A stretch of 64,000 bases of DNA from assembly GCF_002896875.1 (NCBI RefSeq), contig NZ_CP023278.1, positions 682,001 to 746,000 of the forward strand. The letters are read 5' to 3'. The translations under genes and the position numbers were made by a program. The DNA comes from Nostoc sp. CENA543 (GTDB taxonomy: Bacteria; Cyanobacteriota; Cyanobacteriia; Cyanobacteriales; Nostocaceae). The notes beneath the pieces were generated by a model. The model did no database searches. It worked only from the letters and a program-made list of their open reading frames with translations, and was not told where the DNA came from. Positions 3,792 through 58,109 of this stretch are shown piece after piece (the first letter of the stretch is position 1; every line of letters starts with the position of its first letter).

Positions 3792-5453
3792 CTACAATGC
3801 CTTTGTTGCTGACTCACCAGCTTTCTTTAATTGGCGCGTTATTTGCAACAACATGAAACTCAAAAGGATTGTGTGTCCGATAATTCCCATAATGGAAGTA
3901 ATTATTGTTACTTCACCTGATGGATATAAAACAACTACGGGTGCAGCTACGGAAAATAGCCAAAGGAAAGTATAGTTTTGAGGAGAGGAAAACAGCATAC
4001 CCAAAGCTACGACTGGTAAGATCATCACACCGATCATCACACCATTAGTCAAAAATAGCCTTTGTCCGTGTTTCATCAGTAAAAGTAGCTGTGTTAAGGC
4101 TGCATAGATGAGGGTGAGACTACCAGCAAAGATGAGGGCGACTAAGGAAACAACTTTATCCTCTCGATCAGCTAAAGAAACAAGGGCAAATAAACTCAAG
4201 CCTGTAATGGCAATCATGACATTAATCGCGATCGCCAAGATCGCCGGACTTTTTTCACCCCAAATTAAGTCTTGAACTAAATTCAGCTTTTTACCCTGTT
4301 GAGTGCCGAAATGACGATAACGCGCCCAATCTTGTAATGTGTGACGATGGGGAGTTAAGGCTGCAATTAAATACAAGCAAAAACACAAGTCCAGAAACAT
4401 CAAACAAGCGATGTTTTCTCGCATGGCGTAAGTATAACTACCATCACCAAAGACTAATTGTGACCAGTTAGCAAAGCCCACAGTAATAATTGTGAAAGCT
4501 GATGTGAGCCAGTAACTCTGTTGTTTACTGAGCATGGTAGCATTGCGATCGCGGAAGCATCTTTGTAATGATTGCCAAAGAAAATAAGCTCCCACTAAAT
4601 GAATCACTACCGTAAAACCAATAATTTCTACCCAACTGTTTCCTATTAGAAAATTAAACCAACGCACATTAGCTACATCCATCCTATTTGTGTCGTTTCC
4701 CAAACTGGAAATGACATAATAAGGATTCAGGAAATTCAAAATTTTAAATGGATGATTACTGGTAGTGCCGCTTGTAATTACTTGTTGAGTGATTGACAAA
4801 AATCCTAAAACTGCGCCACTTCCTAACCACGCTTGAAAGCTACCTAACCAAGAACCGACCAAACCAAATAACAGTGCGCCACTAAAGTAAAGTAAACTAG
4901 AAGTAAGAACCAGAATATAAAAACCGCAAATCAAACCTAAAGGAATTTGAGCGTTTAAACCTAACCATAAATGAAACGGAATCGCTAGGCACACTCCCAA
5001 ATAGACTAAGATGGGAACTCCTAACATTTTACCGAAAAGAATACTTTGGGGTGATTGCGGACTCAAGCGAATAAAGTTGAGTGTATCGCGTCTTTCTTCT
5101 GTAGATAAATCGTTAATGAGTAGGTAAATACCCGCCACAATAATTACAAAAATCCCCAGAATACTCAGCCAGCTAAATGTATCTTGAAACCACACTTGCC
5201 AATTTATATCCAGATTCCCGGAATTATCTAAAAAGCATTCATTGTAAATCTCTAAATTCTGACCTCGACAATATCTATTTGAACCGATTGGATTACTGGG
5301 TAAAAGACCTTGAAAATAAAGGAACACCACCAACTGCGTCAGGAAGGAAGCAACCATGATGATTAACACATTGCGTTTATGCAATCGTCCTTTAATCTCA
5401 CGTAATAATTGCGGATTCCAGTCTCCGATTTGATTTATCCAGTTAGTTTGCAT
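3792..5453 (-). CDS. ABC-2 type transporter permease, cyanobacterial family (copy 1)
   Basis: A 553-residue membrane protein with a short cytoplasmic N-terminus (GDWNPQLLREIKGRL), a first membrane helix, an extracytoplasmic segment with two cysteines and then about ten further hydrophobic helices. The conserved ERRDTLNFIRLSPQSPQSI stretch followed by GKMLGVP at about residues 117-147 is nearly repeated in the neighbouring gene, so the two are paralogues. It is the last gene of a three-gene minus-strand operon with a paralogous permease and an NatA/CcmA-type ATPase. It probably forms half of a heterodimeric exporter. Cargo unknown. Confidence 0.75.
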   Translation of the reverse strand: MQTNWINQIGDWNPQLLREIKGRLHKRNVLIIMVASFLTQLVVFLYFQGLLPSNPIGSNRYCRGQNLEIYNECFLDNSGNLDINWQVWFQDTFSWLSILGIFVIIVAGIYLLINDLSTEERRDTLNFIRLSPQSPQSILFGKMLGVPILVYLGVCLAIPFHLWLGLNAQIPLGLICGFYILVLTSSLLYFSGALLFGLVGSWLGSFQAWLGSGAVLGFLSITQQVITSGTTSNHPFKILNFLNPYYVISSLGNDTNRMDVANVRWFNFLIGNSWVEIIGFTVVIHLVGAYFLWQSLQRCFRDRNATMLSKQQSYWLTSAFTIITVGFANWSQLVFGDGSYTYAMRENIACLMFLDLCFCLYLIAALTPHRHTLQDWARYRHFGTQQGKKLNLVQDLIWGEKSPAILAIAINVMIAITGLSLFALVSLADREDKVVSLVALIFAGSLTLIYAALTQLLLLMKHGQRLFLTNGVMIGVMILPVVALGMLFSSPQNYTFLWLFSVAAPVVVLYPSGEVTIITSIMGIIGHTILLSFMLLQITRQLKKAGESATKAL

Positions 5454-5563
5454 AGTGAAAACTCATGTGGTGTTAGGTGGAATTGACTTACACAACTGGT
5501 AGATGTTTTAAGTTTATAGTCAGGAATATGTTCCTAACTATAAACATCGGATAATTGATATAT

Positions 5564-7465
5564 TTAGCGTCCTGCTAATAAAGCTTTACTAGCAGATTCC
5601 CCCGCCAGTTTGATTTGTTTGTTGAGGTGAAAATTCAACAATCCTAAAACCATCAACTCAGCTAAAAGTGACATAAAAACAGTAATAGTTGCAGAGTCTT
5701 TTACACCCGCCCAAGGAAAAGTCGAAAATAGCCACACTGAAGGATAATTTTCTGGATAAATGCTACATAATCCTAGAATCGCCGGTGGGAGAAACATGAC
5801 TAAAGCCATAGTGCCAACTCCCCAGATACCCCGTTGAGGATTTTTTAGCATCAGCATAGTTTGCAATATGGCAGCATAAATCATTGCCATGCTGACAAAT
5901 AAGGCTACACTTAAAACCGCTTTCATTCTCCCAATTTCGTTCATCCAACCAAGAGCGTTGCTATTTCTGAAATTTAATGCAGGTGCAATAATTATCCAAA
6001 TAACTACAGGTGTCACAATAATTAAAAGGTTGATAGCAATTGCTATCAAAGATGGGCTTTTTTCTCCCCAAATGCCATCTTTTAACCAAGAACTACGCCA
6101 AAATTTTTGCTGATTAGACACTTCATAGTAACTATAGCGTGACCAGTCTTGAATTTGCTGGCGATGGGGAGATAAAACAATCATCAGCGCAAACACCAAC
6201 GCCACGTTAAACAATATAAGCAAAACCAAGTTTTCGCCGATTTGATGATTTACATCATAGTAGCAATTCCTCCCATAATAAGGATAACAGGAGTTATTTG
6301 CGTACTGGAGAGTAAATCCCCAAAAGATGAACTGACAACAACCGACAAAAAAATAGCTTTGACCTTTACTTAAAACGGCTGTTTCAGGATTGCGAAATCG
6401 ACGCTGTAATGCTTGCCAAGCCCAGTAGATACCAACACTGTAGTTAAATAAATGTAAGGCTAATAAACCTACAAGACTTTTACCTAAAGGTAAGTAGAAA
6501 AATTGTAATTCATCTAGGGATCGATCCCCATATTTGCGGAATACATTACTAAATAGATAACCCATCATGTCAAATGGGCTTAATATTCTTAACCATGTGG
6601 CTGTATTGATACTATCAGAGCTATAAGAAGCTAAGTTAAAAGTTGTAAACAAGAATAATAAAACTGCACCACTAGCTAACCAAGGTTGAAATCCACTAAA
6701 CCAACGACTAATTAAGCCAAATAAAAGTGCGTAACTATAAAAGAAAGCGCAACAACCAACAAGCAAAATATCAAATATGAGGATGTGGCTCAAGGCGATT
6801 TTGGCAGATAAGCCAGAAAGCAAATGTAAAGGTAAAGCTGCAAATACTATCAGATAAATGACAATCGGTACTCCTAACATTTTGCCTATTAAAATGCTCA
6901 TTTCTGATTGGGGAGTCAGACGCAAAAAATTCAGCGTTCCGCGTCGTTCTTCTTGCGCCAAATTATTAATGAGCAGATATGTACCAGCTACTAACAAAAT
7001 AAACACAAACACCACAGTTAAGGTGAGAAAAATATATTCCCAGTGATCCCGCCACCAAAGAGTGAAATTGATTTGAGCAGTAGGACAGTATGTCTCATAG
7101 AGATTTCTATTAATATTGGTCTGTTCTGTTTGGAAACTGGCTAACTGGGTTTTTAGTGCTTGTAACTTGACTTTATCAAAGTTGGGTTGACCACTATATG
7201 TATTAATCTTTTGCTGGACTTGAGTAATTAATTGAGACAGTATATTGAGGCGTTCACGATAACCTGGAGCTAAATTGCAATATGTCCCGGACATAGAATA
7301 TTTTGCCCCAGGATAATCAGCAAATTGATAGATAAAAGTTCCTAGTTGCCCTAGTAGCGATAAGCCAACGGCAATCACTATATTAAAAACCTTGAGCCGA
7401 CCTTTAAGTTCCCGGAATAACTGTGGATTCCAGTTGCCTATTTTATCTATTAAATTCAGCATCAT
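5564..7465 (-). CDS. ABC-2 type transporter permease, cyanobacterial family (copy 2)
   Basis: A 633-residue paralogue of the downstream permease, with the same N-terminal GNWNPQLFRELKGRL and the same QERRGTLNFLRLTPQS...GKMLGVP core. It differs by an insertion of about 70 residues between the first two membrane helices (about residues 55-130), with heptad-like spacing and flanking cysteines (TYCNLAP, ETYCPTA). That suggests an extracytoplasmic coiled coil possibly clamped by a disulphide. It sits 24 bases downstream of the ATPase gene, in one operon. The substrate cannot be read from the sequence. Confidence 0.75.
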   Translation of the reverse strand: MMLNLIDKIGNWNPQLFRELKGRLKVFNIVIAVGLSLLGQLGTFIYQFADYPGAKYSMSGTYCNLAPGYRERLNILSQLITQVQQKINTYSGQPNFDKVKLQALKTQLASFQTEQTNINRNLYETYCPTAQINFTLWWRDHWEYIFLTLTVVFVFILLVAGTYLLINNLAQEERRGTLNFLRLTPQSEMSILIGKMLGVPIVIYLIVFAALPLHLLSGLSAKIALSHILIFDILLVGCCAFFYSYALLFGLISRWFSGFQPWLASGAVLLFLFTTFNLASYSSDSINTATWLRILSPFDMMGYLFSNVFRKYGDRSLDELQFFYLPLGKSLVGLLALHLFNYSVGIYWAWQALQRRFRNPETAVLSKGQSYFFVGCCQFIFWGFTLQYANNSCYPYYGRNCYYDVNHQIGENLVLLILFNVALVFALMIVLSPHRQQIQDWSRYSYYEVSNQQKFWRSSWLKDGIWGEKSPSLIAIAINLLIIVTPVVIWIIIAPALNFRNSNALGWMNEIGRMKAVLSVALFVSMAMIYAAILQTMLMLKNPQRGIWGVGTMALVMFLPPAILGLCSIYPENYPSVWLFSTFPWAGVKDSATITVFMSLLAELMVLGLLNFHLNKQIKLAGESASKALLAGR

Positions 7466-19619: not shown

Positions 19620-21056
19620 ATGACAGAAGTATCTTTAAAGCTTTTCTTTTCTTACTCACACAAAGATGAATCTCTACGGGATGAATTAGCCGACCACCTT
19701 GCTACATTGAAAAGAGAGGGTGTAATATCAAGGTGGCATGACCGCAAGATACTACCTGGACAAGAGCGGGATCACCAGATTAACGATAATTTAAATACAG
19801 CTGATATCATTCTGTTGCTAGTCAGTTCAAACTTTCTGGCTTCCGATTATTGTTGGGATGTGGAAGTTAAAAGGGCAATAGAACGCCATAATGCAGGAGA
19901 AGCTTGTGTAATTCCGGTGATTTTACGTCCTGTTGACTGGAAAGGCACGCCATTTGCTAAACTGCAAGCTTTACCAAAGAATGCTGAACCCATTGTATCC
20001 AGAAATTGGCATACTACAGATGAAGCTTTTATGGATGTAGCAAAAGGTATTCGTGCGGCTGTTGAAAAACTCAAACAGGAAAGAGAAGAACGCCAACAAA
20101 AATTGCAACGCCAACGAGAACAAGAAGCTGAAAGACTGCGACAGCAGGAAACCGCAAGGTTACAAAAACAACACGAACAAGAAAAAGTTGAAAGACTGCA
20201 ACGAGAACAAGAAGCCGAGAGACTAAGACAGCAAAGGGAAGCAGAACAACAAGAGGCTTACGCAAATAATTTAAGACTTTACGAGCAGGAATTTTCTAAA
20301 GCAGTTTATTTGAGTAACCCAATCAGTGAATATGTTCGCAATGGGCTAAAACAATTTCAGCAGTCTTTAAATCTCAGAGATGAAGATGTAAGACGAGTTG
20401 AAAAAACAATTTTAGCTCCACTAGAAGAAGTTGAGAGAATAAGGAAACAACAAGAAGCAGAAAAGCTGCAACGCGGACAAGAAGAAGCAGAGAGAATAAG
20501 GAAACAACAGGAAGCTGAGAGGCTAAAACGGCAACAAGAAGAAGCTGAAAGGCGGTTACAGGAAACTGATGATCTGAGTTCTGATAAAGGTGTAGACTAT
20601 AGACGGTTGCGTGATTTACTTAAAGCTGGAGACTGGAAAAAAGCAGATCGAGAAACTCTGCAAGTGATGCTAAAAGTTGCAGGTAGAGAAAAAGAAGGCT
20701 GGCTTGATATCGATTCAATTACAAAATTTCCCTGCACTGACTTACGCACTATTGACCAACTGTGGGCAAAATACAGCAATGGACGCTTTGGATTTAGTGT
20801 ACAAAAACGTATCTGGGACAGTGTTGGAGGCCATCTTCAAACTGATTATGAGACTTGGTGCAAGTTCGGCGATCACGTGGGCTGGTATAAGAAGGAGTTT
20901 ATGATTTTTGGGGATTCTATTTTGAAAAGTTATGATGATCTGACATTCAATGTCAAAGCTCCCGAAGGGCATCTACCCGCCAGGTGTGGGATGGAGGGGG
21001 TTTGGCAATTTGGGTGGCGTTTTTGGGTCTCTCTTCTCTCGCGTCGAGACTTGTAA
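19620..21056 (+). CDS. TIR domain/coiled-coil/GUN4 domain protein
   Basis: A 478-residue protein. Residues 1-150 form a TIR domain (LKLFFSYSHKDE, SRWHDRKILPG, ADIILLLVSSNFLASDYCWD) with candidate catalytic Glu82. Residues about 150-230 are a charged Arg/Glu/Gln coiled coil. Residues 232-285 are a helical module (LYEQEFSKAV...LNLRDEDVRRVEKTI), then a second coiled coil to about 335. The C-terminus (about 336-478) is a complete GUN4 domain (VDYRRLRDLLKAGDWKKAD, GRFGFSVQKRIW, LPARCGMEG). GUN4 binds porphyrins such as Mg-protoporphyrin IX; bacterial TIRs often cleave NAD+ or make nucleotide signals. The combination suggests tetrapyrrole-sensing TIR signalling, which is inference. There is no close operon partner. 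Confidence 0.87.
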   Translation: MTEVSLKLFFSYSHKDESLRDELADHLATLKREGVISRWHDRKILPGQERDHQINDNLNTADIILLLVSSNFLASDYCWDVEVKRAIERHNAGEACVIPVILRPVDWKGTPFAKLQALPKNAEPIVSRNWHTTDEAFMDVAKGIRAAVEKLKQEREERQQKLQRQREQEAERLRQQETARLQKQHEQEKVERLQREQEAERLRQQREAEQQEAYANNLRLYEQEFSKAVYLSNPISEYVRNGLKQFQQSLNLRDEDVRRVEKTILAPLEEVERIRKQQEAEKLQRGQEEAERIRKQQEAERLKRQQEEAERRLQETDDLSSDKGVDYRRLRDLLKAGDWKKADRETLQVMLKVAGREKEGWLDIDSITKFPCTDLRTIDQLWAKYSNGRFGFSVQKRIWDSVGGHLQTDYETWCKFGDHVGWYKKEFMIFGDSILKSYDDLTFNVKAPEGHLPARCGMEGVWQFGWRFWVSLLSRRDL

Positions 21057-21295
21057 AGTCTAACACATAAAGCTTACACAAAATGGTAACGATTTATAAA
21101 TAGGTCATTTCCCACGAAGTCTTGCTGGTTCTACGTTGCCGTTACCTGGTACTGTTCCTTCTGCCCTTTTTCCCGTTCCTCTGGTTTTTCTTGTAGTGTG
21201 CTGCCAGCAACCTGTGGGTGATAACAATTAGCTAGGATAATGCTCAAGAAAATCTAAAATATAAGGAATGAGCATTATTATTAAAAACTAATTAA

Positions 21296-55844: not shown

Positions 55845-58109
55845 TTAAAGACCTATTTTCAGGCTCCATATTCTCACAGATTTATCTTGACCACCACTCA
55901 CCAAAGTATAGCCATCTAAGCTGCTGCGAACGGATAAGATGCGTCCAATATGTCCCTCTAAGCTGTTTTCTAATTGCCCTGTTACTAAACTCCATACTTT
56001 GAGTGTTTTATCATCGCCACCACTAATTAATCTATTGCCATCAGCAGTAATTGCCACAGATGCAACATTACCGATATGTTCTGTAAGATTTGCTTTTAAT
56101 TCTCCAGTCAGCGCATCCCAGATTTTGATATGTCCTTCTTCACCTGCACTAGCGATAGTTTTCCCATCAGGACTAATCGCAACAGAACGCACAAAACCTG
56201 TGTGTCCTTCCAGGGTTTTCAGCAATTGGCGTGTGGCTAAGTTCCAGATTTTTACTGTTCTATCATTGCTGCCGCTAGCTAGTAATTGACTATCATTACT
56301 AATCGCAATGGTACGAACAAAACCTGTGTGACCTTTCAAAGTATGAAATAAGTTGCCATTAGACGAATACCAAAGTCTGATAGTTTGATCTGCACTACCA
56401 CTAGCAATCATCTTTCCATCTTTGCTAATCACGACTGTAGTCACCCAGTCTGAATGCCCGTTGAAAGTACGAATTAGCTTACCTGTGCTTAAATGCCAAA
56501 GTTTAAAAGTCCTATCAGCACTACCACTCACTAATAGTTGATTATCTGCACTTAAGTCAATGGTGGTAACTATATCTGTATGTCCAGTTAAAGTTCTGAG
56601 TAATTCTCCAGATATTACCTCCCAAATATTAATTTTTTGCCCATCACTGTTGATGACGATTGTCCCTAGAGAATTAGTAGCTACAGCTTTAATATCACCT
56701 AAGTTTGCTGTTAGAGCAATTTGAGATTGCCAATTTAGAGGTTTGTCGATAGACAAATTTATTTGGTAATTTTTATATTTGGGTAAGGTAATATGCTGTT
56801 TAATTAGCTCTACGTCTTGATCTGCAAGTCCTAAAGATTTTTGTGTTTTTTTCAAATTACTATTAGTCAATTCGCTTGGAGGATAATCAATCCTGAAAAC
56901 AATCCCTAGTTCCTGCTGATAACGTTGTAATTTTTCTTGATAAGATTTTTCTAAGGCTTCTTTGATTTGGGATATTCCTTTTTGGGCTATGTCGGTAACA
57001 ATATTTTTATCTGAAGAAATACCCCATTGATCAGATACATTATTAGCAACTTTTAGGACATTTTGGAGCAGATTTTTACTTTCAATATTGAGTTTATTGG
57101 CTAATCTCAAATTATTTGCTGCTGCCTCTAATTCGCTAGTTTCTTCGAGGGATTGTGCGGTATTTGATTCTTTTACTTGATGATAATTTTGGGGTTTATT
57201 ATTTGCATTATTGGATAAAGTTTCAGCAGCACTAGCTTCTACAGGTTCTTGTATGTTAACTTGTAATTTTGTTTGATAATATTTAGATTCTGCTTGAGAA
57301 CGAATAGGTAATTCAATTCTTTTGGCATCTTCAGGTTTGATACCTAAATCTCTTTGCCTTAGTTCTAAATCCCTCTCAATTCTGCTATTGAGAGGGTATT
57401 CCGACTCAATTACTTTTTTAAAGGTTTCTTCGTATTTTCGCAGTTTCTGTTGATAAATTACATATGGCTCAAAAGCTCTTTGTTCGATATCTTTCGCTTG
57501 TTCATTGGTTAATCCTAGTTCTTCCCTTAGTTCATTGAGTGTATCTCTGGAAGGCAAAGAAATCGTTCCATCCACAGATAAAATTTCTTCAACCTTGGCT
57601 TTATAACGATTGAGATTTCTGGCAACTTGCTGTTGCGCTAACTGCTGCTGACGTTGAATTATCAGGGTTTCCGCTACTCTACGAATACCTTGAGCTATGT
57701 TGTCGAAAGCTTCATCTCGAATTTGCCAACTGGTTACGGGTTGAGCATTTTTAGGGAGAAATTGCAGTTTGCCAAATGGTGCGCCTGTCCAATCGACTTT
57801 TCGCAAGATCACCGGTATAACACAGGCATTGCCTTCATTATGACGTTTCATCGCTGTTTTAACTTCAACATCCCAGCAGTAGTCAGAAGCGATGAAATCT
57901 GCACTAATCAGCAACAAGATAATATCAGCTGCGAGTAAGTTTTCATTAATTTGACTATCCCATTCTGCTCCCGGCAGGACTTTTCTATCATGCCAGCTTG
58001 AGATTACACCCTGCTGTTTTAAAATGCTCAGGTGATTTGCTAATTCGTCTCGTAGCTCTTCATCTTTATGCGAGTAGGAGAAAAAAAGCTTAACTGAGTT
58101 TTCTGCCAT
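55845..58109 (-). CDS. TIR domain/helical modules/WD40 protein
   Basis: A 754-residue protein. Residues 1-150 are a TIR domain with candidate catalytic Glu82 (DYCWDVEVK), about 70 percent identical by eye to that of the TIR-GUN4 protein over the first 90 residues. The middle has at least three copies of a helical module of about 50 residues (about 166-218, 222-275, 390-450), each with a pattern like YPLN...LGIKPEDAKRIE. The C-terminal 290 residues are seven WD40 blades (TGHTDIVTTIDLSADNQLLVSGSAD and similar), a single propeller. By analogy with WD40-sensor immune proteins the propeller would detect a ligand and the TIR would cleave NAD+ or make a messenger; this is inference. Confidence 0.87.
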   Translation of the reverse strand: MAENSVKLFFSYSHKDEELRDELANHLSILKQQGVISSWHDRKVLPGAEWDSQINENLLAADIILLLISADFIASDYCWDVEVKTAMKRHNEGNACVIPVILRKVDWTGAPFGKLQFLPKNAQPVTSWQIRDEAFDNIAQGIRRVAETLIIQRQQQLAQQQVARNLNRYKAKVEEILSVDGTISLPSRDTLNELREELGLTNEQAKDIEQRAFEPYVIYQQKLRKYEETFKKVIESEYPLNSRIERDLELRQRDLGIKPEDAKRIELPIRSQAESKYYQTKLQVNIQEPVEASAAETLSNNANNKPQNYHQVKESNTAQSLEETSELEAAANNLRLANKLNIESKNLLQNVLKVANNVSDQWGISSDKNIVTDIAQKGISQIKEALEKSYQEKLQRYQQELGIVFRIDYPPSELTNSNLKKTQKSLGLADQDVELIKQHITLPKYKNYQINLSIDKPLNWQSQIALTANLGDIKAVATNSLGTIVINSDGQKINIWEVISGELLRTLTGHTDIVTTIDLSADNQLLVSGSADRTFKLWHLSTGKLIRTFNGHSDWVTTVVISKDGKMIASGSADQTIRLWYSSNGNLFHTLKGHTGFVRTIAISNDSQLLASGSNDRTVKIWNLATRQLLKTLEGHTGFVRSVAISPDGKTIASAGEEGHIKIWDALTGELKANLTEHIGNVASVAITADGNRLISGGDDKTLKVWSLVTGQLENSLEGHIGRILSVRSSLDGYTLVSGGQDKSVRIWSLKIGL

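Follow-up and report, generated by a model that had tools for sequence, protein, structure and literature searches.

In cyanobacteria, GUN4 domains occur fused to kinases, caspases, trypsin and TIR domains, an observation that Kaur et al. 2020 (PMC7159879) credit to Davison 2005. The same paper proposes that tetrapyrrole binding provides allosteric control of the GUN4 fusion partner. Both the fusion and the tetrapyrrole-sensor proposal were thus already on record; what is new is the C terminus of the TIR–GUN4 protein described here. Hypervariability of the GUN4 lid is not described in the accessible portion of that paper, and no report of it, or of a link between GUN4 and RAYT transposases, was found in the open-licence literature, although there may be earlier work elsewhere.

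Canonical GUN4 proteins provide the reference for this C terminus. In Synechocystis GUN4, the tetrapyrrole lid follows the GHLP sequence and bears the LxNxLR motif (N211, R214), which is missing from GUN4 paralogues generally (PMC10156173). In Chlamydomonas GUN4, N219 is required for bilin binding, and the N219G mutant still binds porphyrin (PMC10156173). The R211E change in Arabidopsis GUN4 weakens the binding of PIX about 5-fold and that of MgP about 12-fold (PMC8967248); R211 is the counterpart of Synechocystis R214 by our own reading of the alignments. Two further systems offer points of comparison. The variable proteins of cyanobacterial diversity-generating retroelements (DGRs) carry CLec or FGE domains on kinase, caspase and TIR partners (PMC7517822), and among the RAYT (TnpA-REP) transposases, subclass 2.1 is given no REP (PMC6006769).

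The TIR–GUN4 protein and its lid

The window, a 64,000-nucleotide stretch of Nostoc sp. CENA543 (Nostocaceae; NZ_CP023278.1, positions 682,001 to 746,000), holds a gene whose product has exactly the architecture of the TIR–GUN4, kinase–GUN4 and caspase–GUN4 conflict proteins (Davison 2005; Kaur et al. 2020, PMC7159879). Its open reading frame starts with ATG and ends with TAA (Table 1).

Table 1. Features of the TIR–GUN4 gene and its 3' end, in window coordinates
Feature	Position	Strand	Details
TIR – coiled coil – GUN4 gene	19620..21056	+	478 aa; stop TAA 21054-21056
TIR domain, aa 9-116	19644..19967	+	Pfam; PADLOC ThsB-type TIR model 5e-62
Candidate catalytic Glu82	19863-19865	+	invariant in 9/9 TIR–GUN4 proteins
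Long helical / coiled-coil linker, aa 136-316	20025..20567	+	AF2 helices H136-231, H237-249, H254-316
GUN4 domain, Pfam PF05419	20580..21008	+	last conserved block APEGHLP, its end at 20978
Variable region (VR), 53 nt	20979..21031	+	encodes ARCGMEGVWQFGWRFWV(S); in place of the LxNxLR tetrapyrrole lid of canonical GUN4
Conserved 3' element core, TCTTCTCTCGC[AG]TCGAGACTTGTA	21032..21055	+	coding in all three frames, staggered stops
Element 3' flank (TGTAACATNTAA... block)	21056..21130	+	89% identical to syntenic G007 gene

Pfam places TIR_2 at aa 9-116 (8.8e-14), TIR at aa 13-146 (8.4e-9) and GUN4 at aa 321-463 (3.9e-44). Sequence matches among solved structures agree, with the GUN4 structures 1z3x, 1y6i and 4ykb at the C terminus and the CRISPR TIR protein Cat1 at the N terminus. 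The AF2 model of the GUN4 part (pLDDT 81) superposes on GUN4–MgDIX (4xkc) with a TM score of 0.81, and the Pfam match, the model and this comparison all assign the GUN4 fold. The full-length model (pLDDT 61.8) is too weak to place the TIR domain relative to GUN4. The TIR domain has both the fold and the candidate catalytic glutamate of a ThsB-like NADase or cyclase, and Glu82 is kept with its surroundings, without exception, in the nine TIR–GUN4 proteins of the family. The original prediction of a TIR domain joined through coiled coils to a C-terminal, sensor-like GUN4 domain, with Glu82 retained, is thereby confirmed. No defence-island context is seen at this locus. The ThsB-like TIR gene has no ThsA partner beside it; its neighbors on the two sides encode an FAD amine oxidase and a DUF4351 protein. 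Elsewhere in the window (55845-58109, minus strand), another gene encodes a TIR of this type ahead of a helical region and WD40-like repeats.

The genome encodes 14 GUN4 domains: one canonical GUN4, three TIR–GUN4 proteins, two kinase–GUN4 proteins, a caspase, a trypsin-like and an ATPase-like fusion, and others, the classes besides TIR being assigned from reading the sequences. The canonical copy (L001) keeps the lid motif as LSNQLR. In the window protein, A454, C456, M458 and E459 align with L209, N211, L213 and R214 of Synechocystis, and the stretch corresponding to LxNxLR reads ARCGME. As judged from this alignment, the window protein is a GUN4 fold without the lid that holds the tetrapyrrole-contact motif. 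The earlier description of a full GUN4 domain therefore holds for the fold and fails for the lid.

A sensor in which GUN4 binds porphyrin or bilin, gates the TIR activity and reports photosynthetic status, as the original prediction had it, is unlikely. The resemblance to GUN4–MgDIX favors it, as does its outline in Kaur et al. 2020 (PMC7159879), and some lid mutations leave porphyrin binding intact (PMC10156173). However, the LxNxLR lid is lost and the stretch is hypervariable (see below), the residue aligned with R214 is a glutamate where R211E in Arabidopsis cuts affinity 5- to 12-fold (PMC8967248), and a random lid is not needed for a fixed ligand. Porphyrin binding by the window GUN4 may still occur, since the Chlamydomonas N219G protein bound porphyrin (PMC10156173), but the sequence gives no support for the domain as a porphyrin reader. 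While Kaur et al. (PMC7159879) treat GUN4 as a tetrapyrrole sensor, we somewhat favor reading the GUN4 end as a diversified recognition domain, with the 3' element marking the class of GUN4 genes that replace their lids.

The variable region and the conserved 3' element

Whichever of its three frames is read, the 24-nt element specifies a tail of the form hydrophobic-x-Ser-Arg: FSRVETCKL in frame 1, SSLASRLVNCNI in frame 0 and LLSRRDL in frame 2, each followed by a stop. The last of these supplies the final residues of the window protein; sister proteins end in LFSRxETCKV, of which LLSRRDL resembles a frame variant. A frameshifted pseudogene was considered as the origin of the LLSRRDL end and rejected, since genes make use of each of the three frames and show a depletion of in-frame stops. 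Because the tail is available in any frame, the element may be conserved both as an any-frame coding sequence and as a DNA site.

In the Nostoc genome the element is found solely at the ends of GUN4 genes, and it occurs in 143 of the 218 genomes of the family, with no hits for the reversed control in either search. The best 80 of 116 stretches in a GTDB scan are all cyanobacterial except for one from Rhodanobacter. Among 120 element copies from that scan, 106 lie directly behind a GUN4 domain and the remainder are mostly at locus ends or behind decayed genes. The bases flanking the search pattern are 85-98% conserved. A conserved hairpin 3' of the element (CTGTAAC...GTTACAG) was unsupported, its arms pairing in about half of the sequences at several positions, and an Rfam search near the TIR–GUN4 gene gave no match. 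Four loci (L128, L129, L133 and L140) are single open reading frames in which two or three GUN4 domains stand in tandem, every domain having a lid and an element to itself. The internal elements are translated in an open frame, and for one pair of internal lids (L129/L133) the identity between species reaches 96%.

The VR lies between GHLP and the element and ranges from 28 to 244 nt, with a median of 58. Its composition (G 37, T 32, A 19 and C 12%) differs from that of the preceding GUN4 core (A 33, G 26%), and runs of G and T are over-represented. The 5' border falls inside the proline codon, with 98% conservation of the CC and randomness setting in at the wobble base, which fits a border set by selection on proline; the 3' border varies by two bases. 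In a set of 159 unique VRs, the frame of the gene is open in 155, whereas the two remaining frames are open in only 53 and 62. Stops make up 0.14% of in-frame codons compared with 5.1 and 5.8% off-frame and 5.6% expected from composition. The three frames are used 78, 42 and 39 times, and the codon-position and amino-acid composition is nearly equal in all of them. The pattern, as read from these sequences, is that of random nucleotides filtered for an open frame.

Syntenic comparisons indicate how the VR changes. Pairs were accepted when the upstream and far-downstream flanks were both at least 85% identical. Across the 90 resulting pairs, which are partly non-independent, include some paralogues and are all between species representatives, VR identity is below 0.60 in 85, 0.87 in two and complete in three, with none between 0.6 and 0.8. 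Random VR pairs have a mean identity of 0.44 and a 99th percentile of 0.60. When the pairs are reduced to 23 independent groups, the VR is replaced in 21. The VR-bearing loci were collected via the element, and element-less paralogues and the upstream RAYT count (below) serve as controls. In these element-less GUN4 genes the lid follows the core (identities of 0.99/1.00, 0.97/0.99 and 0.86/0.88), and its length changes only in multiples of three. The two behaviors can be seen in a single comparison of the Nostoc genome with a relative (G009), where the tail of an element-less caspase–GUN4 protein is 0.99 identical and an element-bearing TIR–GUN4 gene has a VR identity of 0.57 beside a far flank of 97%.

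The window gene itself can be compared with its syntenic counterpart (L080) in genome G007, with identities of 81% upstream, 89% in the element region, 94% far downstream and 0.44 in the VR. At this locus and in other syntenic pairs, the GUN4 core has also diverged between conserved flanks (0.62 for the window), as if whole GUN4 segments had been exchanged on top of lid replacement; this points to ordinary recombination acting as well. In three independent cases of VR pairs with a shared prefix (L149/L227, L136/L277 and L200/L252), the 5' part is kept and the element-proximal part altered. The turnover of lids is not constant, since some close pairs retain identical lids. A comparison of plasmid strains gave only one weak match.

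It is very likely from these comparisons that the lid is hypervariable and that lid change goes together with the element. Simple rapid drift of a C terminus free of constraint, helped by homopolymer slippage, would fit the excess of G and T runs and the differences in frame from gene to gene. It is highly improbable as the explanation given the strong selection against in-frame stops, the bimodal identities immediately beside an intact element and the stable lids of element-less paralogues.

RAYT-type nucleases and the source of lid DNA

The commonest neighbor of the element is a Y1 (IS200-like, PF01797, 1e-18) HUH transposase of the RAYT type, in convergent orientation and usually 44-115 nt behind the element. 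Of 163 terminal genes, 42 have an intact or decayed RAYT downstream, in every case convergent, whereas the upstream control gave 1 of 163. Most of the 42 end 95-140 nt from the element start, the convergent gene or its remnant being first met about 95 nt past that point. Conversely, the 12 best homologues of the RAYT, taken from 12 genomes, are all behind GUN4 genes. By our own count from element and RAYT searches, the element is present in 66 of the 92 genomes that have a RAYT of this clade and in 77 of the 126 that have none, so the linkage is local and not genome-wide. Across genomes, co-occurrence with the element is weak for the RAYT and the DGR reverse transcriptase alike.

The GUN4-linked enzyme has the Y1_Tnp core with NHVH, W and YIHANP (YIHxNP) motifs and an SSPGQ tail, features it shares with the RAYT/TnpA-REP transposases (PMC6006769), and it was assigned to subclass 2.1 by motif only. 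Like them, it has no recognizable second transposon end. Unlike them, it sits convergently behind a GUN4 gene and a unique element instead of among dispersed REPs. A two-ended mobile element around the RAYT was rejected, with the RAYT 5' flanks all different and no second end. A search for another conserved neighbor returned only unrelated genes (ferredoxin-like, Uma2-like and DUF4351) at varied distances.

The RAYTs beside elements are frequently decayed. Remnants are present at two GUN4 loci of the Nostoc genome, no RAYT gene or remnant is detectable 3' of the window's TIR–GUN4 gene, and no intact member of the GUN4-linked clade was found in that genome, where the only Y1 transposase is a 144-aa open reading frame. 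One kinase–GUN4 gene with an intact RAYT adjoining (L088:3914-4160) has a 105-nt VR of nearly pure G and T that runs into a stop after three codons; it resembles what lid diversification would yield before selection.

Where the new lid DNA comes from was addressed by searching for donors. None was found in the Nostoc genome for five of its VRs, and VRs share substrings no more than shuffled VRs do. With no donor found in these searches, it is likely that new lids arise without the copying of a template in the genome. Donor cassettes were rejected on the same results. Conversion by, or exchange of cassettes with, GUN4 copies that are silent or paralogous is suggested by tandem GUN4 genes and by the exchange of GUN4 cores at syntenic loci, but it is very unlikely to supply the lids when five lids of this genome have no donor, substring sharing is at the level of shuffles and base composition is near-identical at all codon positions. 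The antigenic variation of Neisseria pilin and phase-variable tracts, as generally understood, also involve localized variation with G-rich DNA; unlike these, the GUN4 lids have no silent copies and are not mere changes in repeat number.

The DGRs of cyanobacteria (PMC7517822) are another parallel. In both cases variation falls near the 3' end of an effector-fused ligand-binding module, next to a conserved 3' DNA sequence, and targets are dispersed and remote. The GUN4 lids differ from DGR targets in having no template repeat or A-specific substitution, in varying in length and frame, in not requiring a reverse transcriptase, and in residing on a GUN4 fold instead of a C-type lectin. The Nostoc genome carries a genuine and complete DGR (L147:3268-6904; G000:C1 about 2,487,267-2,490,903) with a TIR–FGE protein (VR 4822-4950), a small accessory open reading frame, a reverse transcriptase (5442-6512) and a template repeat (6776-6904) whose differences from its VR are A-specific. 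The TIR of this TIR–FGE protein is a relative of the window TIR.

The presence of this DGR, and the IMH-like position of the element beside the variable region, raise the prospect that a template repeat and reverse transcriptase rewrite the GUN4 lids. That would be most surprising. Searches of the Nostoc genome with the VRs and element returned only GUN4 genes and no template repeat, and the VR/TR end of its DGR is unrelated in sequence to the GUN4 element. The lids do not show A-to-N change at constant length, being of all lengths in the range given above, in all frames and at random-background identity. A DGR reverse transcriptase is found in just 56 of the 218 genomes, and by our own count from element and reverse transcriptase searches 98 element-bearing genomes have none. 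A DGR with its template repeat elsewhere was rejected for these reasons.

The favored account is break-and-fill. In discrete events, the lid DNA would be exchanged wholesale for G/T-rich sequence whose length and frame are random. HUH enzymes cut single strands of DNA and remain attached through a 5'-phosphotyrosine. With a cut at VR|TCTTCTC, the element side would be held in place while the 3' end of the lid could be trimmed and extended before rejoining; such a course would account for the element staying intact, for partial replacements at the 3' end, for the missing template and for the open-frame filter. Selection retains only open-frame lids, as the depletion of in-frame stops shows, and the element closes the protein in any frame with its hydrophobic-x-S-R tail. 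That a RAYT-type HUH nuclease makes the break at the VR/element border, with the element left intact and the free lid end trimmed, extended and rejoined, is put forward tentatively, at a little under an even chance. The caution about the RAYT is needed because the intact gene is missing from the Nostoc genome and many others.

The same break-and-fill process might instead be driven by another enzyme, with the RAYT a passenger that uses the element as a landing or binding site. The many element-bearing genomes without an intact RAYT of the clade, Nostoc included, would fit a passenger, as would the frequent decay of the adjacent copies. This possibility is somewhat less likely than not, given the uniformly convergent orientation (42/42) and narrow spacing of RAYTs and remnants, the linkage of all 12 best homologues to GUN4 genes and the lack of any other conserved neighbor at a fixed place.

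GUN4 effectors as a possible diversified repertoire

A few observations bear on a possible defence role. In PADLOC, a kinase–GUN4 relative matches PD-T4-6, and the TIR matches ThsB models. In the kinase–GUN4 protein of the Nostoc genome (L019:3617-4951), the PD-T4-6 profile PDLC04062 spans the GUN4 domain, so kinase–GUN4 proteins already match a defence model. A GUN4/kinase gene is also one of those that carry mutations in a cyanobacterial substrain resistant to phage (PMC10811720).

From the domain architecture and the retained Glu82, there is perhaps an even chance that the effector, in this protein a TIR NADase or cyclase, is under the control of a ligand bound at the variable lid. An analogy is the N-region diversity of V(D)J recombination in CDR3, where, as generally understood, G-rich nucleotides of random length are inserted at a binding-loop junction and filtered for frame, much as in the GUN4 lid. 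It is an analogy only: the GUN4 lid is bacterial, no RAG or TdT is known, three tail frames are usable and replacement is by block. The findings suggest that cyanobacteria rewrite a lid on signalling proteins with no detectable template, in the manner of the junctional diversity of immune receptors. More tentatively, and with somewhat less than even confidence, a template-free RAYT system acting at a phylum-wide element may rewrite a CDR3-like lid on GUN4 receptors with TIR, kinase, caspase and other effectors, giving an innate-immune or signalling repertoire.

If this is correct, it would represent a bacterial way, distinct from both DGRs and cassette exchange, of diversifying receptors through random loops. 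The diversity would be located in a family of TIR, caspase and kinase effectors thought to act in immunity and cell death in multicellular cyanobacteria. It would also provide a function for a class of domesticated transposases, RAYT subclass 2.1, that has no known REP partner. Many proteins annotated for their GUN4 domain would then be reread, from sensors of chlorophyll status to diversified receptors.
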